Shown here: piece after piece, positions 33,044 to 33,425 of the stretch
How positions within the stretch are numbered: position 1 is the stretch's first letter
Layout of the letters: each line of letters begins with the position of its first letter
Assembly: GCA_021821045.1 (NCBI GenBank)
Contig: JAKACW010000049.1
Span: forward strand, 1 to 33,425
DNA: 33,425 nt
From: Pseudomonadota bacterium
Lineage (GTDB): Bacteria; Pseudomonadota; Gammaproteobacteria; JAADHS01
Reading direction: 5' to 3'
Translations under genes and position numbers: made by a program
The notes under the pieces: model-generated
The model's database searches: none
Told to the model about the DNA's origin: nothing
Seen by the model: the letters and a program-made list of their open reading frames with translations, nothing else

Positions 33044-33062
33044 AATCGCGGATAAGTCCGCT
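33044..33062 (-). repeat. REP palindrome, type b, truncated at the IS junction
   Basis: AATCGCGG...TCCGCT follows the type-b pattern for 19 bases, with a changed centre, then breaks off: the expected CCCAC is replaced by TATATGGACCC. The break marks the probable edge of the mobile element. Confidence 0.65.
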
Positions 33063-33368
33063 TATATGGACCCGTCCTGTTTTGCAAGATAGCCCTCTTG
33101 TGATTGACGACGGGGTTGCGACTGCGCGCTTATATCCGGCCTGTTGACGGCGGGTTTTGTCGTCCGCCTGGCCACAATGAATTCCGCGCACTCTCTGGCC
33201 TCTACACTCCTACACGGCTTGCCGGCTTGCGCCTTATGAGCCTAACGGATTACCAGGTTGCCAGAAGAGCCGGTCTGAACCGGTATCGTCATCACGTAAG
33301 TTCTATCTTCGCAATCGCGGGCAGGTCATTCCTCCACTAAAACGTTACATTACCTCTCGTCAGGGCGC
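33063..33368 (-). ncRNA. Candidate IS1111-type guide RNA (bridge RNA/seekRNA) region
   Basis: In IS1111-type elements the guide RNA lies downstream of the transposase gene. Here 306 bases without a credible gene follow the transposase stop, with several hairpins. Two words match parts of the type-b REP: CAATCGCGG (33312-33320) and ATTCCGCG (33181-33188). The RNA ends cannot be set by eye, and the matches are short enough to arise by chance. Confidence 0.3.
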
Positions 33369-33425
33369 TCAGGCCGCTTGATACGTTTCGCCGCGGGCCA
33401 GCAACACCCACATCGTTCGGGCCTG
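33369..33425 (-). CDS. IS110/IS1111-family transposase, last 18 codons only
   Basis: The window ends within the gene. The visible C-terminus reads QARTMWVLLARGETYQAA and then TGA (33369-33371). It matches the ARxxWxLLxRGETY pattern near the end of many IS110-family transposases, the DEDD-type enzymes that recombine DNA under guide-RNA direction. Eighteen residues are thin evidence on their own. The assignment leans on the adjoining structured non-coding end and the REP junction. Confidence 0.55.
   Translation of the reverse strand, partial: QARTMWVLLARGETYQAA

Follow-up and report, generated by a model that had tools for sequence, protein, structure and literature searches.

A multi-copy IS1111-group insertion sequence with a predicted guide RNA occupies a minor REP class of a gammaproteobacterial genome

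The Element End and the Interrupted REP

The stretch of DNA analyzed here (the window) is the complete contig JAKACW010000049.1 (C137; 33,425 bases) of the 140-contig, 4.5-Mb genome of a member of the Gammaproteobacteria (GCA_021821045.1; G000). The contig terminates within a repeated insertion sequence of the IS1111 group, in which the assembly broke. As described in the initial annotation, a repetitive extragenic palindrome (REP) follows its pattern for 19 bases (33044-33062, reading AATCGCGGATAAGTCCGCT) and then changes abruptly; this boundary proved exact, with TATATGGACCCGTCC at 33063 as the first bases of the element. On the minus strand an open frame with its stop codon at 33369-33371 runs off the contig and reads ...QARTMWVLLARGETYQAA before the stop, which resembles the C-terminus of the IS110-family transposases of relatives and agrees with the transposase end annotated there. 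The features of the locus are collected in Table 1.

Table 1. Features at the right end of the window
Feature	Position	Strand	Remarks
REP stem part, AGCGGACTTATCCGCGATT on the minus strand	33044..33062	-	Missing foot CCTAC at the start of contig C101
Transposase-side end of the IS1111-group insertion sequence	33063..33425	-	Cut by the contig end; based on seven genome copies and anatomy
Terminal extension ATA, 3 bp	33063..33065	-	1 nt ambiguity with the target
Right subterminal inverted repeat AGGACGGGTCCAT	33066..33078	-	Partner ATGGACCCGTCCT at the opposite end
Predicted seekRNA / bridge-RNA region	33131..33316	-	Covariance model from 27 relatives, 61.7 bits
Putative guide 2, GTAGGAG	33207..33213	-	Same sequence as the REP head spanning the insertion point, GTAGG/AG
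Putative guide 1, GTAATCCGTT	33244..33253	-	Pairs with AGCGGATT of the REP stem
Transposase C-terminal 18 codons and stop, IS110 family	33369..33425	-	N-terminus MKLKALGI on contig C45

A genome search with the element end located the transposase-side end at seven contig ends (C137, C63, C122, C35, C116, C59 and C48). Within the element they are 96-100% alike; beyond it they have only the neighboring REPs in common, and in all seven a REP stem abuts the element, which is far beyond chance. Opposite ends were sought by comparing contig ends mutually, using the starts of the remaining contigs and the full sequence of those shorter than 20 kb. The opposite end was found to open seven contigs (C13, C19, C45, C65, C101, C110 and C140); in each it reads ...AGGACGGGTCCATTTCATTT and passes directly into CCTAC, the missing REP foot, followed by unique sequence. 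The counts of the two kinds of ends thus agree, and the genome holds at least seven copies of the element. An exact 31-base query from the element end had no match in 84,980 species genomes, and a plasmid search with this end gave only a weak, probably chance match.

The far side of the window copy could be assigned by gene order. In two relatives, one of the same family (G002) and one of the same class (G003), a gene for a ~440-residue protein lies directly upstream of ubiG. In the genome studied here ubiG adjoins the element in the window and the ~440-residue-protein gene (67.6% identity to that of G002) stands at the start of C101; C137 and C101 therefore hold the two flanks of a single insertion, which parts ubiG from the gene preceding it. 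Their flanks rejoin as AATCGCGGATAAGTCCGCT/CCTAC (the slash marks the insertion point here and below). A second REP half at the far end of the element, set beforehand as the test of the annotation, was accordingly present in seven of seven cases. The interrupted repeat had been assigned to the window's type b; a REP is indeed split, but the opposite end shows that it belongs to a rarer class with the foot TCCTAC and not to the abundant one with TCCCAC. Read in the direction of the transposase gene, the target is usually GTAGG/AGCGGATTTATCCGCGATT, give or take one ambiguous base, and that of the window copy is AGCGGACTTATCC. The target REP is nearly the same as TGTAGGAGCGGATTCATCCGCGAT, the REP listed for Pseudomonas entomophila L48 (PMC2817692).

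Element Ends and Transposase

IS1111 elements are known to have subterminal inverted repeats (sTIRs) of 11-13 bp, terminal extensions of 7 bp (occasionally 6) and 3 bp and, past the end of the gene, a long non-coding region (PMC11187229). The element shares all of these: its sTIRs are perfect over 13 bp, the extensions are AAATGAA (7 bp) on the left and ATA (3 bp) on the right, and 306 nt of non-coding DNA separate the transposase stop at 33369 from the element end at 33063. Once the extensions are assigned, the split target closes to an exact REP; no target-site duplication is seen beyond the 1 nt of ambiguity and the rejoined flanks give an intact REP. The target is sequence-specific, all seven copies occupying one and the same point of the REP. 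The predicted RNA region downstream of the gene and the presence of sTIRs do not fit the IS110 group in the strict sense (IS621-like). By its sequence features the element belongs to the IS1111 group of the IS110 family and would encode a DEDD transposase.

The start of the gene is read on the opposite strand of the other end as AGGAGGGTCCGCG ATG AAG CTT AAA GCA TTG GGA ATC (MKLKALGI), preceded by an AGGAGG ribosome site. An IS110-family DEDD gene had been expected beyond 33425. The gene itself is not in the assembly, but the 8 N-terminal and 18 C-terminal residues present there, together with the sTIRs, extensions and RNA region, match IS1111-group elements that do carry such a gene: the transposases of three relatives with the same ends and RNA contain DEDD_Tnp_IS110 and Transposase_20 (PF01548/PF02371).

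Predicted Guide RNA and Its Match to the Target

A guide-RNA region had been proposed for the ~300-base non-coding end, and it is predicted there also by a structure-based covariance model built with the window left out. The match in the window (rough E 4e-14; Table 1) is paralleled by 61.6 bits in the C63 copy, and a scan of 52 kb gave no match beyond these two. Compensatory changes were observed in 11 of the 22 consensus pairs. Rfam had no match for this RNA.

An alignment of relatives revealed two short variable segments flanking a small hairpin. For 18 relatives with distinct guides, pairing of guide 1 with the right flank of its own target averaged 5.89 of 8 positions, vs. 3.17 with the targets of others, and identity of guide 2 to the left flank of its own target averaged 5.17 of 6 vs. 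1.60. Neither value was reached in 100,000 permutations (0/100,000 for each), a figure that serves as a guide and not as an exact probability, as the relatives are not independent. The two guide segments were located because they covary with the target in this way. On the minus strand guide 1 (33253-33244) comes before guide 2 (33213-33207), the arrangement of IS1111 seekRNAs, in which the complement of the top strand lies 5′ of the match to the bottom strand (PMC11187229).

On the RNA strand GUAGGAG matches the REP and UAAUCCGUU pairs with its stem; within guide 1, TAATCCGTT pairs with AGCGGATT with one G-U. Measured against the REP of the window element, guide 1 fits at 6.5 of 8 positions and guide 2 is exact. 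In the 2.23 Mb of this genome covered by our REP census, 22 GTAGGAG sites fit guide 1 at 6.5 of 8 or better (at least 6.5), of which 19 are strict REPs and three look like REP remnants. Another stretch, AATCGCGG (GATTGCGAAG on the RNA strand), was considered as a REP-matching guide and rejected, being conserved in relatives with other targets. Guide 1 differs between the C137 and C63 copies (TCAATTCGTT in the latter, L191), the remaining RNA being almost identical, and pairing with the REP is kept through an extra G-U.

Use of One of Two REP Classes

The repeats are dispersed palindromes with a GTAG/GTGG head and are of the type associated with RAYT (REP-associated tyrosine transposase) genes. 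Four RAYT-like Y1_Tnp genes are present in the genome (C46:804, C19:2637, C134:31536 and C119:156), the one on C119 being followed by a cluster of GTGGG-type REPs. The census counted 518 REP feet TCCCAC (head GTGGGA), 32 TCCTAC (head GTAGGA) and 4 TCCAAC. All seven insertions lie in GTAGG-type REPs, which make up 32 of about 554; were all REPs equally likely to be hit, the chance of this would be about (32/554)^7 = 2e-9. In the whole genome 23 uninterrupted exact copies of GTAGGAGCGGATNNATCCGCG are left, and none of a reversed control pattern. Between guide 2 and the GTGGG class a single base differs, and guide 1 by itself would not separate the two classes. This one-base difference would be sufficient reason for the GTGGG class to be left unused.

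Other insertion sequences were also encountered. A second, apparently complete IS110-type element lies at about 2251-3505 of C29 (L033 968-2222), with a long non-coding region upstream of its gene. Its flanks, GTGGGAG and CTACCGCGATTC, are two pieces of the abundant type of REP that leave about 7 bases of the repeat unexplained. This element too may be RNA-guided and target REPs, in its case those of the abundant class. A further IS110-type transposase of 391 aa is encoded at C3:5496-6443 and, so far as observed, lies outside REPs. The C3 and C29 genes were considered as the gene of the window element and rejected, as both lack its ends. Another high-copy insertion sequence breaks the assembly at C11, C22, C28, C61, C67 and C68 and at C25, C37, C56, C88 and C127; both kinds of its ends finish in AACGTCGGAAAGTGACCGGTTAC, apparently inverted termini.

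Relatives in Other Hosts

A homologous element is present in three copies (L050-L052) in genome G021, and its transposase as query retrieved 80 further loci, in most of which both ends follow the IS1111 rule. The nearest named relatives of the window element are mostly found in Gammaproteobacteria. Several unnamed elements (the G021 copies, L195, L198, L199 and L200) share their ends and RNA architecture with the window element. The G021 and L199 copies use the same insertion point, behind a GTAGG head, in other REP-like repeats: the target is GTAGGT/TGGGCTGACG in G021 (site of the copies, GTAGGT/TGGGCTGACGAAGGAAGCCCAAC) and GTAGGT/TGGGGTGAGG in L199, as compared with GTAGG/AGCGGATTTATCC for the window element, and the guides differ too. 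Uninterrupted copies of these repeats number 16 in the G021 genome and 11 in that of L199 (controls, 0). The L200 site is the palindrome GTAGGG/CGGATTAGCG, of which a second exact copy was not found in the L200 genome. Judged from these sites, the insertion point of several near relatives lies after the GTAGG head in REP-like repeats of different sequence, to which their predicted guides correspond.

The right end of an IS1111 relative in Shewanella canadensis (L206) occurs twice in tandem, perhaps through insertion beside an older end; guide 1 of this locus matches the flank behind the second right-end copy.

Interpretation and Alternative Explanations

Taken together, the window very probably ends in a multi-copy IS1111-group element that has a DEDD transposase and, downstream of it, a seekRNA whose two guides match the GTAGG-type REP and direct insertion to its head/stem junction. 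The proposal of a REP-targeting RNA-guided element in a host other than Pseudomonas is in this way supported by the ends, the target and the covariation of the guides. Several observations weigh against it. The REP of the window copy has one mismatch to guide 1 (AGCGGACTT), and the C116 copy sits in a more diverged REP. Guide 1 fits best when shifted by one base relative to guide 2, a shift no larger than the 1-nt ambiguity in where the insertion point lies. Folded as a single sequence, the RNA is no more stable than shuffled versions (z -0.65); support for the RNA region is comparative and does not come from such a fold. Finally, the middle of the transposase, about 1 kb, is absent from the assembly, as expected of a collapsed repeat, and with it the stretch that would carry the DEDD residues of the element itself.

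This gap bears on whether the copies could be dead, non-autonomous remnants similar to miniature inverted-repeat transposable elements, consisting only of ends and RNA and spread by another transposase. A full-length gene is indeed absent, but a start codon with a ribosome site and an intact C-terminus with its stop are found at the two ends, and a missing middle is the usual outcome of collapsed repeats; we regard this as very unlikely. Least probable, to the point of being nearly negligible, is that the REP neighbors are an assembly artefact. REPs do lie at or close to the ends of many contigs here, and if contigs break at REPs any repeat end would adjoin one. Yet the junction is base-identical in the seven contigs, 79-363 bases inward from the contig end, with unique flank past the REP; the complementary foot stands at the other end in seven contigs, synteny independently pairs C137 with C101, and the contig breaks at other multi-copy elements of the genome are free of REPs.

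Recognition of the folded palindrome by the protein, with the RNA-like region of an IS1111-type element having another role such as transposase control, is a further alternative, since REPs are palindromes that a protein could recognize and regulatory RNAs flank the ISPpu9 transposase gene. We regard it, too, as very unlikely: near relatives with the same RNA architecture have different target sequences, which the two variable RNA segments track, only one of two palindromic REP classes with similar stems is used, and seekRNA guidance has been proven for other IS1111 elements (PMC11187229).

Comparison with Known Systems

Targeting of REPs by IS110-family elements has been known since 2003-2006 from IS621, ISPpu9/10 and ISPa11 (PMC1525189), and RNA guidance of the family since 2024. 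The Pseudomonas precedent cited in the initial annotation holds, and extends to an IS1111 element with a proven seekRNA, ISPa11 of Pseudomonas aeruginosa, which targets a Pseudomonas REP (PMC11187229). ISPa11 resembles the window element in family and in targeting a REP, with a seekRNA that is predicted in the window element, but differs in host and REP; the window element, moreover, shares its genome with a far more numerous REP class that it leaves unused. The seven copies each of ISPpu9 and ISPpu10 (IS110 family, Pseudomonas putida) all lie in REPs at one position, as do the copies studied here; their insertion point within the REP is a different one and they are flanked by a 2-bp (AG) direct repeat, whereas the window element has clear sTIRs and, apart from 1 nt that is ambiguous, duplicates nothing. 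IS621 (IS110 group, Escherichia coli) is inserted into a REP by a bridge-RNA-guided DEDD recombinase (PMC11208160). Its RNA lies in the left (upstream) end and long sTIRs are missing, in contrast to the predicted downstream RNA and 13-bp sTIRs of the window element. RNA-guided REP-targeting elements are thus a kind already described, to which the present one clearly adds a new member, instructive for its use of one REP class over another.

Proposed Mechanism and Significance

By analogy with the published family mechanism (PMC11187229, PMC11208160), the non-coding region that follows the transposase gene would give rise to a seekRNA (bridge RNA), to be bound by the DEDD transposase. The two guides would pair with opposite strands of the REP, guide 1 with the stem (AGCGGATT) and guide 2 with the head (GTAGG/AG). 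Transposase and RNA would excise the element as a circle, which would then recombine into the GTAGG head/stem junction of GTAGGAGCGGAT-type REPs without target duplication; the abundant GTGGG REPs would be passed over because guide 2 reads GTAGG. The anatomy, the target, the guide positions and the guide-target covariation in relatives are observed; we infer RNA transcription and processing, catalysis, the circular intermediate and the sufficiency of one mismatch for the discrimination. Insertion into an intergenic repeat would probably cause little damage, and dozens of such sites would be available.

A broader reading, which we put forward tentatively and consider possible rather than probable, is that a lineage of IS1111 elements tracks the REP families of different hosts, with a fixed insertion point after the GTAGG head that marks RAYT-type REPs and two guides that change along with the REP sequence of the host. 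The one-base difference from guide 2 would here confine the element to a minor REP class, and insertion may cut the REPs of this class off from their RAYT transposase.

From sequence comparison alone, the guides of an IS1111 element fit one REP class, while a more numerous class in the same cell, one base off guide 2, is spared. The two REP classes offer a natural test of guide stringency. The finding supports the idea that dispersed repeats may serve as safe, re-targetable landing sites for RNA-guided insertion sequences.
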